Positions 29,474-36,711 of a stretch of 64,000 nucleotides of DNA are shown one piece after another. Positions within the stretch are counted from its first letter, which is position 1. Each line of letters begins with the position of its first letter. The notes beneath the pieces were generated by a model. The model was not told the origin of the DNA and searched no databases. It saw only the letters and a list, made by a program, of their open reading frames with translations. The stretch spans positions 248,001 through 312,000 of the forward strand of contig JAUIHT010000003.1 in NCBI GenBank assembly GCA_030432235.1, given 5' to 3'. Made by a program: the position numbers and the translations under genes. This DNA is from Verrucomicrobiia bacterium (GTDB lineage: Bacteria > Verrucomicrobiota > Verrucomicrobiia > Opitutales > Cerasicoccaceae).

Positions 29474-29508
29474 TTGACAAAGAGAGGCATTGTCCAATAT
29501 CCTGTACA
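29474..29508 (+). promoter_or_regulatory. yefM-yoeB promoter and TGTACA operator core
   Basis: A TTGACA box (29474-29479) and TATCCT (29498-29503) are 18 bp apart. The hexamer TGTACA (29503-29508) immediately precedes the start codon region. TGTACA is the palindromic core bound by YefM in characterised yefM-yoeB loci, so autorepression is likely. Confidence 0.5.
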
Positions 29509-29510
29509 TC

Positions 29511-29762
29511 ATGAACGCGATCACTTATTCAAGCGCTCGGGAGAATCTGGCGCAGACCATCAAACAGGTGTGCTCCGACCACAACCCGGTGATCATCACG
29601 CGCAAAAATACGGATGCGGTCGTCATGATGTCCCTGGAAGACTATGAGTCGATGGTAGAGACCAACTACCTGCTGCGCAGCCCGAAGAACGCCAAACGCC
29701 TTCTGGACTCCATCGAGCAACTCGACGCTGGCAAAGGCAAGGAGCGGGAGCTGGCCGAGTGA
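29511..29762 (+). CDS. yefM: YefM antitoxin (Phd/YefM family)
   Basis: An 83-residue antitoxin and autorepressor, from the ATG at 29511 rather than the upstream TTG. It begins with AITYSSARENLAQTIKQVC, the typical DNA-binding and dimerisation part. NPVIITRKNTDAVVMMSLED and YESMVETNYLLRSPKNAKRL follow, with an acidic C-terminal toxin-binding tail. The stop codon overlaps the yoeB GTG start by four bases. Its operator-like TGTACA lies just upstream. Confidence 0.93.
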   Translation: MNAITYSSARENLAQTIKQVCSDHNPVIITRKNTDAVVMMSLEDYESMVETNYLLRSPKNAKRLLDSIEQLDAGKGKERELAE

Positions 29763-30013
29763 AGAAAATCTTCTCAGACCAAGCGTGGGAGGACTACCTC
29801 TACTGGCAGAAGACCGACAAACGCATCCTGAAGAAAATCAACGAGCTCATCAAAGACGTCGACCGCAACGGCAACGAAGGCATCGGCAAACCCGAAGCAC
29901 TAAGACACTCATTGGCTGGCATGTGGTCCCGGCGCATCACCGAGGAACACCGCATGGTCTACCGCATCGTGGATGATAGTATTGAGATAGCTCAACTGCG
30001 GTATCATTATTGA
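29759..30013 (+). CDS. yoeB: YoeB toxin (Txe/YoeB family mRNA endonuclease)
   Basis: A ribosome-dependent mRNA interferase of 84 residues, the same length as E. coli YoeB. The active-site residues Glu46, Arg65, His83 and Tyr84 are at identical positions, the last two in the terminal LRYHY. The start is GTG, overlapping the yefM stop codon. This is the one toxin-antitoxin pair in the window that looks fully intact. Confidence 0.93.
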   Translation: MKKIFSDQAWEDYLYWQKTDKRILKKINELIKDVDRNGNEGIGKPEALRHSLAGMWSRRITEEHRMVYRIVDDSIEIAQLRYHY

Positions 30014-32681: not shown

Positions 32682-33029
32682 CTACTCGATTCGCTTAAAA
32701 ACAAAAACGTCTGGTTGCTCTTCCGTAATTGAATAGTCAACTTGCTCACCGTTGGGAGTGTAGACCGAGATTATTGGTTCTCCACGTTGAGAATCAATTA
32801 AGACATATATCTCACCGGATTTTGGATCGATTGCCGGTTTCTCAACAGCACCTCTTTGTGCTTCAACCGAGTAGGCTGCTATGACTTTCTGTAGCCACAT
32901 ATTGTGTTTAGCATGCTCGATTTTATCAGCCAGCAATCCGAGCACAAACGACACACCTAAAAAAACAAATAACCAAACGGCAAACTTTGGTCTAACACGT
33001 GGATGCTTCTTAGGAGCACTCTCATCCAT
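32682..33029 (-). CDS. Small membrane-anchored hypothetical protein
   Basis: Unrecognised, 115 residues. An N-terminal Lys/Pro-rich cytoplasmic stretch precedes one membrane helix (FAVWLFVFLGVSFVLGLLA, about residues 16-34). A soluble domain follows with IDPKSGEIYVLIDSQRGEPI. GC content is low. It resembles the 20989-21399 protein in layout (helix FVLGFALA versus FVLGLLA) but I cannot show homology. Confidence 0.55.
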   Translation of the reverse strand: MDESAPKKHPRVRPKFAVWLFVFLGVSFVLGLLADKIEHAKHNMWLQKVIAAYSVEAQRGAVEKPAIDPKSGEIYVLIDSQRGEPIISVYTPNGEQVDYSITEEQPDVFVFKRIE

Positions 33030-33148
33030 GATTTACATCAGGTTGCACTTATACCCCCGCCCCGTCAAAGCAGAAAACGGCCACGCCGCGCCCCGGCGGG
33101 AGGCGACGGGCAGATGCATAGGTGGGCATTCAGGTAGCGCGCATCCTA

Positions 33149-33212
33149 TGCCCCAACGGGGCTACGTATTTTAGCCCAGGGTTGGGCGAGCGCAGCGAGG
33201 CCTACCCTGGGT
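33149..33212 (-). repeat. RAYT-associated palindromic module, copy 1 (inverted)
   Basis: On the minus strand this reads as a CCCAGGGT/ACCCTGGG-type stem-loop, then CTAAAATACGT, then the palindrome GCCCCGTTGGGGC. It is the same module as the copies at 33322 and 33970 but in the opposite orientation. Confidence 0.7.
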
Positions 33213-33283
33213 CTCCGTACGGCAAATCCACCTACCCCGAAGGGGTTGTGGAAAAGGGCGTCACCGTAACCACGCAGTTTCCG

Positions 33284-33300
33284 AAACCCCGTTGGGGTTT
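33284..33300. repeat. AAACCCC-GTT-GGGGTTT palindrome
   Basis: A perfect 7-bp stem palindrome preceded by TTTCCG. It is one of the short REP-like units around the transposase gene. Confidence 0.65.
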
Positions 33301-33321
33301 TATTCAACACACCCACGGATA

Positions 33322-33379
33322 CCCCAGGTAGGTCGCAAGCTCCCAACCTGGGGCTAAATTCCCAAGCCCCGTTGGGGCA
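33322..33379 (+). repeat. RAYT-associated palindromic module, copy 2
   Basis: CCCCAGGTAGG ... CCAACCTGGGG forms the first stem-loop. CTAAATTCCCA follows and then the AGCCCCGTTGGGGC palindrome. It is a direct repeat of the copy at 33970-34025 on the other side of the transposase gene. Confidence 0.75.
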
Positions 33380-33398
33380 AACACATGAATTCCCACCT

Positions 33399-33418
33399 AC
33401 CCCAACGGGGTTTCGGAA
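33399..33418. repeat. Inward-facing REP unit, 3' side of the transposase
   Basis: ACCCCAACGGGGTTTCGGAA lies 46 bp beyond the transposase stop. It mirrors the GAAACCCCAACGGGGTTTC unit on the 5' side, so the gene is bracketed by inverted units. Confidence 0.7.
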
Positions 33419-33463
33419 AACAAACATCACCGTTGGTTTTGGTCTCACCAACCCGATTGCCGC

Positions 33464-33916
33464 TCAATCCCAAACGTATTGCTCATCCCATTCGATGCCA
33501 TGCTTGCGCAACAACGTGCGATACTCGTCCTGAAATGAACACTGCGCATGGTGTGCCTCCTGGTTTTCGATATACTCACGAACCGCCTGCATGTTCGATT
33601 CGCTGACCGAAAACACGCCATACCCGGCCTGCCACGCGAACGCCGCGCAATGCCCGGACTGCTTCGCCCAAATGCTGGACGCGCGTTTCAATTCCTTAAT
33701 CCAATCCGCCACCGTCATCGTCCGCCCGAGACCAGCCAGGATGTGGACATGATCTTCGACACCGCCTATACAGTGCGGCGGGCAATCCAGCGATTTCGAT
33801 ATCCCCGCCAGATAGGAATGCATATCTTTCCGAAACATCGGTTCGCGCAAGTACGGTTGGCGGCCTTTGGTGGAAAATACCGCGTGCAGACGGATGGCGC
33901 TTAACGATTGTGGCAT
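33464..33916 (-). CDS. REP-associated tyrosine transposase (RAYT, Y1/HUH, IS200-like)
   Basis: A single-strand DNA transposase of 150 residues. The HUH motif is His56-Val-His58 in GGVEDHVHILAGL. The catalytic tyrosine is probably Tyr115 in AVREYIENQ, with the conserved Asn/Gln after it. The FAWQAGYGVFSVSES segment is also typical of the COG1943 group. No TnpB partner is adjacent. The gene is bracketed by palindromic repeats in inverted orientation and flanked by longer modules, the signature of a RAYT with its cognate REP sequences rather than a classical IS. Confidence 0.88.
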   Translation of the reverse strand: MPQSLSAIRLHAVFSTKGRQPYLREPMFRKDMHSYLAGISKSLDCPPHCIGGVEDHVHILAGLGRTMTVADWIKELKRASSIWAKQSGHCAAFAWQAGYGVFSVSESNMQAVREYIENQEAHHAQCSFQDEYRTLLRKHGIEWDEQYVWD

Positions 33917-33929
33917 CTCCGTATTTTCC

Positions 33930-33948
33930 GAAACCCCAACGGGGTTTC
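33930..33948. repeat. Inward-facing REP unit, 5' side of the transposase
   Basis: The perfect palindrome GAAACCCCAACGGGGTTTC, preceded by TTTTCC, lies 13 bp upstream of the transposase start codon and could also affect its transcription or translation. Confidence 0.7.
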
Positions 33949-33969
33949 AATGGGAAAACGGTACGGATT

Positions 33970-34025
33970 CCCCAGGTAGGCCTACCGGCCAACCTGGGGC
34001 TAAAATACGAAGCCCCGTTGGGGCA
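33970..34025 (+). repeat. RAYT-associated palindromic module, copy 3
   Basis: CCCCAGGT...ACCTGGGG (33970-33999), CTAAAATACGA, then AGCCCCGTTGGGGC (34011-34024). It matches copy 2 in order, spacing and orientation. Confidence 0.75.
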
Positions 34026-34158
34026 ACTGTGGCAGCATCTCGGAAATAAACCCCGATTGGCTGCGCCCTACCCCCTGAGAGGCAACGGTGGGAATAATTT
34101 CGCTGGCTACTGGCTCTTATTAGGCCAGAATATAGGCAAAACCCAATTCCTACGACTT

Positions 34159-36711
34159 ATGAAAACTCTCCTGCTTTCCTTTATCGCGGCGCTGACGTTG
34201 GCGTCGCTTCCGCTTCACGGCCAGGCCCTTGATGCCGAGCAATACTTTGGCGACCTCGCCCCCGCCGGTGACGGCTGGTATTACGACGATGTCTTCGGCT
34301 ACATTTACCCGCTGGAGCAGCCATGGGTCTACGTCTACTCGCTCGGCAAGCCCATCGCCATCGTCGGCACGGACGCCCAGCTTGACCGGCACTACACTTA
34401 CGACAGCTTTTTCGGCTGGGGCTACATCAGCCTCGATACCTCGCCCTGGATGTACCTCTACGACACCGACGGCACCGTGGGCGACCTCGACTCCGTGGCA
34501 GAGGGCTGGTACTACTCCTACGGCCTGTCCACTGGCGGTGCGGCCCCCAACGCCTATTACGCGAGCTCCCTGGCGACCACGGTCAACTCCGCGCTGACCG
34601 TCGAGGTGGTCAACGGCACGGATGAAGCCGTCTCCGCGGCCAACGCGGTGCCCGACGCCAACATCTACGTGACGCTCTACAGCGGCAAGACCGGCACCTT
34701 CACCCCAGCCGCCGTGGGGCTCAACCAATCGATGACCTTCAATAGCCAGAAGAAAAAGAACGCCTTCACCTTCCAGACGACAGACTGGGAATCGGGCCGC
34801 ATGTTCATCTCCTACGACAATAAGGCGGCCTCTGGCGGCGGCTACACGCCCAACACCGGGAAGATGCCCGACTCCCAGTCCAAAATCGATTCGTTTTCCA
34901 AGACCCTTCCCCGCAACGACAAAATCGAAATCACCTACCAGTTCAAAGGTGGCGTGCCCACGGGCGCGTGCAATCTGACCGCGGTCGACTACTTCGGCGT
35001 GCCGCTTCAGCTCGAAACCCTCGACGCCGCCGGGAATGTTTTGCAGTCCTTCACCTTCTTCGACAACACCACCACGGTGACGAACGACGTCACCGCCATC
35101 AACAGCAACGTCGCCAGCAAGGCCCTGATCAAGGACGCCAACGGCAACTTCCTGCGCGTGCTCGCGCCCGTGGAGTGGTCCAGCCCCAACTCCAGCTCGC
35201 CGGACTACGAGGGCAACAACCCCTACCCGTCCATGTCCGCCTACGTCGCCAGCGTGAACGGCACGACGGTCACAATCGAAGGCTATTACAACGGCGTCGC
35301 CGGGCAGTACCCGCCCGCTTCCTACAGCTACAGCGGGCAAATCAGCAGCACCGGCCCGACCACGCTCACCGGCACGCTGTCCACAGACGGCGGCGCGCCC
35401 AGCGCCGGGCAGAATGTCGTCATCCAGGCGGCGGACCTCATCAGTGGCATTTATACGGCCAACCCACCCTACACCAAGGGCGGCGCCGCCGGCGCCATCG
35501 GCGACAACGACGTCTACTCCGCCATCATGCGTGACCTGCTCAGCGGGTTCAACGGCGGCTACATCGGCGGCACTTATGGCAGTTTACCCAGTGACCAGTG
35601 GTGGGACAAGCCCCCCTTCGTCGCGCAGGGCAACAACCAGTACTACAACCAGTACGCCAAGGCCATCCAGGACGACTCCCAGGCCTACGGCTTCCCCTTC
35701 AGCGACCGCCTGCGCAGCCAGCTCGCCTACTTCAACCAGGACACCGCCACACTGCGCATCACCATCCTGCCGGACGACCTGCTCAACGCGCCGCACGTCA
35801 CCGTGTCCGACATCACGGACACCTCCGTCAAGCTGGACTGGAGCGCCGTGCCCAACGCCACCGGCTACACCCTGGAGTACTACCCGCCGCTCACCGGCAC
35901 CACCGCAAGCCTCGGCAACGTTACCACGAAGACCGTTACCGGGCTGACCCCGGGCACGCCCTACACCTTCTACCTCCGCGCCACCGCCAACAGCGGGGCG
36001 GTCATGTCGCAGGACTTCCCGGTGCAGGCCACCACCACCGGCACGCGGCCCCTCGTCAAGGGCACGGCCCAGTGGCAGGCCTCGTTCACCTTCTACAAGC
36101 CGCTCATCCAGACCGGCGACACCGTGACCATTAACGGCCTCACCGCCACCATCGATCCGAGCACGACCAACCTCACCTTCCAGAACGGCACCATTCAAAA
36201 CTACACCAAAGTCAGCGGCGGCAACTATCCCTCGCTACAACCTGGGCCCGGACCCGCCGTCACGGTGACGGGCGACGGCTTCGGCGCGGCGGCGGTGTCC
36301 ACCGTCAGCGGCACGCACAGCGTGGACTTCGTCAATCCGTCCAAGATCGGCTTCGGCTACACCAACGCCACCGTCAGCATCCCCGGCGGCAGCCCGGACG
36401 CCAACTACACGGCGCAAATCACCACCACGCCGCAGATGACGCTGCCGGTCTCCTGCAAGCTCAACCAGCAGAACGCCTACGTGCTGACCTGGAAGCGCGC
36501 AAACGGCGACATCGTCTTCGAGACCATGCTCTACGCCGATGTGGCAGGCCTGGCCCCCGGCGGCAATGCCATGATGGACCTGGCCACGGTCAAACCCGGC
36601 TCCACCGCGACCTTCCTGGAGGGTAACACCTACCCGCCCATGATCGGCCAGTCCGGTGGCAACGACCCCTGGGTCGTCTTCCTCCTGGTCAAGCCCGACT
36701 TCGTCAAGTAG
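34159..36711 (+). CDS. Secreted GH64-like (beta-1,3-glucanase superfamily) protein with FN3 domain
   Basis: An 850-residue exported protein from the ATG at 34159 (MKTLLLSFIAALTLA); the frame runs further upstream through repeats. Residues about 25-125 are W/Y-rich units such as GDGWYYDDVFGYIYPLEQPW and FGWGYISLDTSPWMYLYD. Residues about 145-550 resemble the GH64/thaumatin-like glucanase fold (NIYVTLYSG, NLTAVDYFGVPLQLE, SAIMRDLLSGFNGGYIGG, AYGFPFSDRLRSQ). A fibronectin type III domain follows (about 550-635), then a beta-rich tail. The GH64 assignment rests on motif memory, and catalytic residues were not verified. With the GH16 enzyme it suggests beta-glucan use. Confidence 0.7.
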   Translation: MKTLLLSFIAALTLASLPLHGQALDAEQYFGDLAPAGDGWYYDDVFGYIYPLEQPWVYVYSLGKPIAIVGTDAQLDRHYTYDSFFGWGYISLDTSPWMYLYDTDGTVGDLDSVAEGWYYSYGLSTGGAAPNAYYASSLATTVNSALTVEVVNGTDEAVSAANAVPDANIYVTLYSGKTGTFTPAAVGLNQSMTFNSQKKKNAFTFQTTDWESGRMFISYDNKAASGGGYTPNTGKMPDSQSKIDSFSKTLPRNDKIEITYQFKGGVPTGACNLTAVDYFGVPLQLETLDAAGNVLQSFTFFDNTTTVTNDVTAINSNVASKALIKDANGNFLRVLAPVEWSSPNSSSPDYEGNNPYPSMSAYVASVNGTTVTIEGYYNGVAGQYPPASYSYSGQISSTGPTTLTGTLSTDGGAPSAGQNVVIQAADLISGIYTANPPYTKGGAAGAIGDNDVYSAIMRDLLSGFNGGYIGGTYGSLPSDQWWDKPPFVAQGNNQYYNQYAKAIQDDSQAYGFPFSDRLRSQLAYFNQDTATLRITILPDDLLNAPHVTVSDITDTSVKLDWSAVPNATGYTLEYYPPLTGTTASLGNVTTKTVTGLTPGTPYTFYLRATANSGAVMSQDFPVQATTTGTRPLVKGTAQWQASFTFYKPLIQTGDTVTINGLTATIDPSTTNLTFQNGTIQNYTKVSGGNYPSLQPGPGPAVTVTGDGFGAAAVSTVSGTHSVDFVNPSKIGFGYTNATVSIPGGSPDANYTAQITTTPQMTLPVSCKLNQQNAYVLTWKRANGDIVFETMLYADVAGLAPGGNAMMDLATVKPGSTATFLEGNTYPPMIGQSGGNDPWVVFLLVKPDFVK

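Follow-up and report, generated by a model that had tools for sequence, protein, structure and literature searches.

Mirrored three-hairpin ends accompany a TnpA gene of subclass 1.2 type and point to a REPIN-like family of mobile single-stranded-DNA elements

A transposase gene set among repeated palindromes raises two questions, namely which kind of HUH enzyme it encodes and whether the surrounding hairpins are the DNA on which that enzyme acts. The locus in question lies in a window of 64,000 nucleotides (G000:C42:248001-312000), which is part of a 42-contig, 5.72-Mb genome of a Verrucomicrobiia bacterium, hereafter referred to as the own genome (G000). In a first-pass annotation, the gene had been described as a RAYT nested in its REP/BIME substrates. 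The presence of an HUH transposase gene amid hairpin units was borne out with exact coordinates by Pfam (Y1_Tnp) and the repeat map, and the three modules described there, two direct copies flanking the gene and one inverted copy, were recovered by searching with the module model R1 at 33150-33211 (minus strand), 33322-33378 (plus strand), and 33970-34024 (plus strand). The pattern GGGCTAAAN{2,8}AGCCCN{3,10}GGGC was matched 3 times in the window, whereas 100 shuffles gave 0.00 matches on average, and no Rfam match was obtained at E ≤ 1 for positions 33000-34200. The locus comprises the following features.

33149..33379, no strand: complete gene-less element, REPIN/MITE-like (repeat map; layout shared with C42:4441-4662)
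33150..33162, minus: outer hairpin (hpOut), left end of the gene-less element (R1 match 33150-33211, 62.9 bits; sequence)
33163..33174, minus: linker of the left end, ending in the TAG foot tag (TACGTATTTTAG)
33175..33211, minus: main REP-like hairpin (HP1), left end (stem CCCAGGGT/ACCCTGGG)
33234..33246, no strand: inner hairpin (hpIn), left half of the gene-less element (direct-repeat family D3; half-match to R1 at 33234-33250)
33284..33300, no strand: hpIn, right half of the gene-less element (repeats I3 and I6; half-match to R1 at 33282-33298)
33322..33353, plus: HP1, right end of the gene-less element (R1 match 33322-33378, 51.1 bits)
33354..33365, plus: CT foot and linker, right end of the gene-less element (sequence)
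33366..33378, plus: hpOut, right end of the gene-less element (sequence; R1 match)
33399..33411, no strand: inner hairpin 3' of tnpA (repeats I3 and I5; half-match to R1 at 33399-33422)
33464..33916, minus: tnpA, 150 aa, HUH/Y1 transposase of subclass 1.2 type (Pfam, NCBIfam, invariant columns, AF2 model)
33931..33947, no strand: inner hairpin 5' of tnpA (repeats I5 and I6; half-match to R1 at 33933-33949)
33970..33999, plus: HP1, right end beyond tnpA (R1 match 33970-34024, 56.8 bits)
34000..34011, plus: CT foot and linker, right end beyond tnpA (sequence)
34012..34024, plus: hpOut, right end beyond tnpA (sequence; R1 match)

Two inner palindromes overlooked in the earlier reading (33234-33246 and 33284-33300) complete the gene-less element at 33149-33379, which runs from outer to main to inner hairpin, continues through 37 bp, and then returns through inner, main, and outer hairpin as a mirror image. 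As single-stranded DNA, it was predicted to fold into a single long hairpin at -69 kcal/mol (DNA parameters, raw value). REPINs are likewise said to fold as a single long hairpin. A second gene-less element of the same subfamily was located at C42:4441-4662, its central part appearing by eye to be reversed. The stem CCCAGGT/ACCTGGG, previously assigned to every module, did not apply to the left one, whose stem is CCCAGGGT/ACCCTGGG, and the supposedly identical units bracketing the gene were indeed present as hairpins at 33399-33420 and 33924-33945 with 86% complementarity, but the right one differs in its loop from the quoted ACCCCAACGGGGTTTCGG. On its left side, the window tnpA has no adjacent HP1 and hpOut in the correct orientation; what is found there is the gene-less unit's right end, in direct orientation. 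The arrangement at 33149-34025 is therefore either one unit with its inner part duplicated or the product of recombination between two units. Elsewhere in the window, two neighboring small ORFs of 90 and 84 aa were noted at 29490-30013, which by eye resemble what we take to be a YefM/YoeB toxin-antitoxin pair.

The encoded protein is a member of the HUH Y1 superfamily (Y1_Tnp). It was matched by Pfam Y1_Tnp at 3.5e-21 and by NCBIfam transpos_IS200 barely above the cutoff (55.5 bits versus 55), and it contains the HuH motif at residues 55 to 58 (DHVH), Tyr115 within Y---Q--HH at 115 to 123 (YIENQEAHH), and WQ. H56, H58, Y115, and Q119 were invariant across 33 sequences. Searching the PDB by sequence profile returned the TnpA proteins of ISDra2 and IS608 together with other IS200-type chains, with RAYT absent among the solved structures obtained. 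When the AF2 model (pLDDT 89.7) was searched with Foldseek, the same IS200-type proteins, IS608 TnpA among them, were placed first, and the RAYT structure 4er8 appeared at rank 30 (E 2.1e-5). Superposition of the predicted model on 4er8 gave a lower rmsd (3.1) than the IS200-type matches (about 5-13), which may reflect merely the packing of the tyrosine helix in a monomer model.

In Quentin et al. 2018 (PMC6006769), Y---NP is given as common to all class 2 proteins (RAYT/TnpAREP), and subclass 1.2 is characterized by Y---Q--HH, WQ, and a length of about 148 aa. By motif, WQ, and length, the window TnpA fits TnpA_Y1 subclass 1.2. Among 111 relatives picked by similarity, Y---Q--HH was found with a simple pattern in 109 (median length, 151), and the usual HuH was present in 106, the remainder being DHAH in three, EHVH in one, and a disrupted reading frame in L031. 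Membership in class 2 (RAYT/TnpAREP) was contradicted by YIENQ in place of Y---NP and by the foot tag [N]AG. The name RAYT, as first proposed, is thus a poor fit for the gene, given that YIENQEAHH lacks Y---NP, the hairpins have no GTAG foot, and the TnpA proteins of IS608 and ISDra2 are closest. Two further TnpA copies in the own genome were 48% and 43% identical to that of the window and therefore gave no sign of recent tnpA transposition; near-identical gene copies, a trait of IS200/IS605, were not found when the own genome was searched.

Each end of these elements has the hpIn beside the gene, then HP1 with its [N]AG foot, a linker of about 10 to 14 nt, and hpOut at the edge, and the two ends are mirrored. 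The plan was examined in an alignment (A2) of 44 modules, obtained from 161 detected modules by dropping 20 names (doubtful, odd, or redundant) and applying a length limit to reach 131, of which 90 were non-redundant and 44 were picked by hand, with outer-hairpin tails trimmed. The aligned order was CCCAGGGT-A...A-ACCCTGGG-CT-linker-outer hairpin. At the stem position after 8 bp, 27/44 modules had A.A, 3 had a Watson-Crick pair, and 3 had a gap. At many loci, a short HP1 without the A.A position was seen, and among 114 held-out modules this position was gapped on both sides in 60. The three letters past the 3' foot in the same 114 modules were CTG (53), CTA (45), CTT (9), CTC (6), and TTG (1); read from the opposite strand, CTG, CTA, CTT, and CTC give [N]AG at the 5' foot. 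The AG foot was also present in a hairpin table built without requiring any tag, while a GTAG (GT[AG]G) tag was found at the hairpin foot neither in that table nor among the three letters tabulated for the 114 held-out modules.

Because the detector required GCT and Watson-Crick pairing, covariation within A2 is partly circular. It was also assessed on held-out loci, using 121 matches from 57 of 74 loci as aligned by the model itself; the other 17 loci were dropped by eye, mostly for matches resembling training sequences. In this alignment, 97.0% of cells were paired and 313 cells had changed on both sides, a level reached by 0/500 shuffles, and pairing fell to 25 to 57% when the partner was slid. 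G.U pairs accounted for 17 of about 1480 paired cells (A4), as recovered by a model trained on nearly pure Watson-Crick pairs.

The architecture was then compared across 111 loci, made up of the own genome, the same order, and the best 80 of 436 relatives from a GTDB-wide scan of contigs; the record titles of those best 80 named Verrucomicrobia, Planctomycetes, Acidobacteria, and others, mostly the first two. In those flanks that were printed and read by eye, the plan was identical and the hairpin sequences were very different. With the structural detector, an outward-facing module was located within 400 bp upstream at 78/109 loci, downstream at 70/108, and on both sides at 53/106, compared with 10/545 and 11/540 in dinucleotide shuffles and 7/141 and 6/141 in flanks beyond 1.2 kb. 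Inward-facing modules numbered 32/109 upstream and 19/108 downstream, as would be expected if gene-less units adjoin the gene. The inverted similarity of left and right flanks had a median of 50.75 within a locus versus 18 between loci. The 99th percentile of cross pairs was exceeded at 42/106 loci, which leaves a good share of them without a clear call by this measure; the flanks of one locus also had raised direct similarity (median, 27). A small palindrome stood beside the gene at 80/111 loci upstream (shuffled, 0.23) and 92/109 downstream (shuffled, 0.31).

The association appeared to be specific to the subclass. At E ≤ 0.001, R1 matched anywhere in the fetched stretch at 63 of the 74 held-out subclass 1.2 loci, which had contributed no training sequence to the model. 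At E ≤ 0.1, it matched 0/26 other Y1 loci (by motif, 19 class 2, 5 subclass 1.1-like, and 2 unclassified), a comparison in which genome and subclass are partly confounded since only 6 of the 26 controls came from genomes with any module in the order scan, and in which 3/20 class 2 control stretches were shortened by contig ends. In PMC6006769, subclass 1.2 is tabulated as "no" for REP and as generally without IS200-type terminal structures, is concluded not to share IS properties, and is placed mostly in Cyanobacteria and Bacteroidetes. The "no REP" trait did not hold here, with modules at 63/74 held-out loci, and it is this published description that the modules contradict, not the class signature.

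For the phylum, the scan covered 383 genomes that were 90% or more complete (tnpA, E ≤ 1e-15; module, E ≤ 0.001); tnpA was detected in 96 genomes and the module in 113; 84 had both, 12 had tnpA only, 29 had the module only, and 258 had neither (odds ratio, 62; Fisher p 9e-46, with shared ancestry ignored). In the order, 177 genomes were scanned (tnpA, E ≤ 1e-20; module, E ≤ 0.01), with tnpA in 26, the module in 38, both in 22, tnpA only in 4, the module only in 16, and neither in 135 (Fisher p 3e-14, again ignoring shared ancestry). Both module scans used Infernal's stricter filters, and the R1 candidates scored per genome were 31 for the order, 14 for the phylum, and 150 for the own genome, so that module counts are lower bounds. 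The first-pass annotation had named two outcomes that would speak against it, a module confined to this locus and equal abundance in genomes without a RAYT homologue. Neither was observed: the own genome gave 37 matches at E ≤ 0.1, modules were present in 84/96 tnpA genomes of the phylum versus 29/287 others, and at least 5 modules (counts being lower bounds) were found in 60/96 versus 17/287. In genome G129, 6/7 units lay between ORFs (120 aa or longer).

The link to tnpA is nevertheless not strict. When the A1 profile was run at E ≤ 1e-5 against the 16 genomes of the order that had the module only, 15 had no tnpA and one had a fragment. At the same threshold, subclass 1.2 tnpA was not found in G129, G007, and G089, each with at least 29 to 30 modules; such module-rich genomes without detectable subclass 1.2 TnpA argue against strict dependence and could represent relics, assembly gaps, or the use of a different enzyme. 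Mobile replicons were also represented, with distant TnpA relatives on a phage and two plasmids. One of the plasmids carries modules; a complete element was found on a Bacteroidota megaplasmid. The other plasmid, NZ_CP147018.1 of Bernardetia (L325; TnpA motif YILNQPEHH), gave no R1 match; in place of the module, its inverted repeats are AT-rich and bear short AGCTGCGTAGCT-like hairpins, perhaps another end type.

Gene-less units were abundant in the own genome. Within its 5.7 Mb, of the 37 R1 matches, 33 were retained at E ≤ 0.001 (150 candidates scored), and two of the four weakest were the opposite strand of modules counted already. Eight outward-facing gene-less pairs of 212 to 371 bp were recognized, six with both perfect inner palindromes and two with one. 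By raw scores, the ends of the window unit, C42:4441, and C37:1468153 were most similar to those of TnpA1; C39:315342 resembled TnpA2, whose target was longer than the others; and C37:1470869 resembled TnpA3, with the inner hairpin GCATCCCTCCGGGATGC in common. C37:999102, C37:245559, and C39:238372 had mixed similarity that indicated no single tnpA, and a ninth place, C39:234790, with a single end scored, leaned to TnpA1 (raw scores in each case). Degenerate direct repeats with a 21-nt period were observed beside 7/20 own-genome element loci (L195, L196, L181, L194, L179, L186, and L190), against a background of 2/67 window stretches of 900 nt. The repeats were called where self-identity at lag 21 reached 45% or more over a 200-nt stretch, the own-genome element stretches being 801 to 1601 nt long; none were called at lags 19, 20, 22, and 23, either beside the own-genome elements or in the window stretches. 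Target preference, hitch-hiking, and coding repeats are candidate readings of these repeats.

The boundaries of the units were defined by comparing copies. In G129, 4/6 units aligned with L227 over their full length (236 to 247 columns) and 2/6 partially; the ends of the fully aligned units lay a few bases at most from the outer hairpin, and their flanks were unrelated. Units of five aligned loci in G091 also stopped at hpOut. A clean empty site was not found for three G129 units (L288, L292, and L293) in three genomes of its genus (G020, G054, and G039), all of which had no module in the order scan. In G020, the flanks of all three units were far apart. For L292, the distance between the outer flanks was 282 bp in G054 and 570 bp in G039, G129 having an extra whole gene plus the unit there; the flanks of L288 and L293 were on separate contigs in both genomes. 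Gene order relative to G020 was broken at 3/3 units, with the other junctions in the queries kept; repeat-mediated rearrangement at G129 units is possible, the sample being tiny. Short repeats were also seen near two units, one at L288:6444-6511 and one at L293:8113-8245; incomplete copies of the first were numerous in G020, G039, and G054, and those of the second in G039.

A different boundary was observed in G083 (L197-L212) and G117 (L234-L235), where similar units of 318 bp enclose many of the gene-less elements in whole. These units have CTAGGGCYAACGGACATTCA-like terminal inverted repeats and CTAG...CTAG ends, and 11 further fetched copies in G083 matched the L197 unit nearly over its full length with 89 to 96% identity. 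The hairpin element within them was probably captured by another transposase, and since the repeat has outer inverted repeats of its own, some of the copy number may stem from that enzyme.

Taken together, these observations are probably explained by a family of mobile single-stranded-DNA elements, REPIN/REPtron-like in organization, that is driven by subclass 1.2 TnpA, an HUH enzyme with one catalytic tyrosine. They would also be compatible in part with a domesticated, mostly immobile RAYT-like gene that has a cellular role, its hairpins being relics or terminators and mRNA-end signals. The few, diverged tnpA copies of the own genome (43-48% identity to that of the window), the many modules retained without tnpA in G129, G007, and G089, and the location of units mostly between ORFs (6/7 in G129) are in keeping with such a role, but mirrored copies on both strands and the rarity of G.U pairs fit selection at the DNA level better, and a general RNA role does not explain a link to one Y1 subclass only; we regard it as unlikely.

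The CTAGGGCYAACGGACATTCA-like inverted repeats bounding the 318-bp units of G083 and G117 would suit hairpin units that belong, as miniature elements, to another (DDE-type) transposase, with the Y1 gene as a passenger. This appears very unlikely, as the G129 units and the five aligned G091 loci end at hpOut without such repeats, the outer repeats were not seen at two of three G083 tnpA loci when these two were inspected by eye, and modules occurred at 63/74 held-out tnpA loci versus 0/26 other Y1 loci. Least credible is the initial proposal of a true class 2 RAYT with canonical GTAG REPs: although it could draw on the Y1 fold, the bracketing palindromes, the dispersed copies, the Foldseek match to 4er8 (E 2.1e-5), and the GTAG REPs that PMC3733652 attributes to the Verrucomicrobia member O. 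terrae, it is contradicted by Y---Q--HH in 109/111 relatives in place of Y---NP, by the 19 class 2 control loci without a nearby module, and by [N]AG instead of GTAG at the foot.

If a TnpA-driven element is accepted, its cycle could be pictured as follows, with binding, guide use, and cut positions modeled on the biochemistry of IS608/ISDra2 and RAYTs. The element, whose gene-less form is a REPIN-like unit (in the own genome, about 210 to 370 bp) capable of folding into one long hairpin, would become single stranded at the replication fork. TnpA would then bind HP1 through its stem, mismatch, and AG foot, and the foot may serve as the guide for a cut near the linker and hpOut. The ends would be joined, and the strand re-inserted at another place. 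TnpA would act in this way on its own copy and, in trans, on gene-less copies with matching ends.

Among known systems, IS200/IS605 (IS608 and ISDra2) supplied the solved structures nearest in both sequence and fold, and its members also have subterminal hairpins. The ends of IS608 are not known to be mirror images, whereas those described here form inverted repeats, with gene-less copies being common. In its DH[IV]H, WQ, Y---Q--HH, length of about 150 aa, and few diverged copies per genome, the protein resembles subclass 1.2 as described in PMC6006769; there the subclass has no REP, while here it has elaborate hairpin ends. With the REPtron/RAYT system, exemplified by E. coli TnpAREP in Corneloup et al. 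2021 (PMC8266576), it shares a single-strand HUH nuclease, a stem mismatch, a 5'-foot tag, inverted pairs dispersed between genes, and enzyme and hairpins that apparently co-evolve. According to that source, TnpAREP reads GTAG and a bulge in the E. coli REP, with cleavage commonly at CT. The present system departs from this in that its protein is of class 1, its foot is [N]AG in place of GTAG, each of its ends has three hairpins, and it forms a discrete unit with defined outer edges. The term REP/BIME substrates, used in the first reading, holds insofar as cognate hairpins and dispersed gene-less copies are present; the three-hairpin ends and copies in the tens make it an analogy only, REPs being stated in PMC2817692 usually to exceed 100 copies, compared with the tens counted here as lower bounds.

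TIRYT/TIRtron elements (Di Nocera et al. 2013, PMC3733652) also combine a Y1 gene with long inverted repeats, some self-complementary, and dispersed copies. Their common GGGGWSAS motif was not the rule here on an informal look, and 20/26 examples belong to subclass 2.1 with HTH domains, per Quentin 2018 (PMC6006769). The Thiomargarita MITEs of PMC4853749 are apparently different elements from the module.

On balance, we favor the further view that subclass 1.2 TnpA drives an unrecognized partnership of HUH-Y1 enzyme and hairpin, the third after IS200/IS605 and RAYT/REP, with mirrored three-hairpin ends, an autonomous form, abundant gene-less forms, and subfamilies matched to their own TnpA in Verrucomicrobiota, Planctomycetota, Acidobacteriota, and Bacteroidota, which would have been overlooked as searches sought GTAG-tagged single hairpins. 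Titles and abstract openings of the open-access literature yielded no recognized account of the module or of subclass 1.2 hairpin partners, and the claim of novelty rests on that literature and on the subclass 1.2 table published in PMC6006769. Several GTAG repeat families are reported in O. terrae by Di Nocera et al. 2013 (PMC3733652); if these were parts of the module, the novelty would be undone.

If the proposal is correct, a published gap would close, with subclass 1.2 gaining DNA substrates of its own, covarying hairpins, subfamilies, and gene-less copies. The family would provide a natural comparison set for HUH enzymes that read folded single-stranded DNA, and in evolutionary terms it would stand midway from insertion sequences to domesticated RAYTs.
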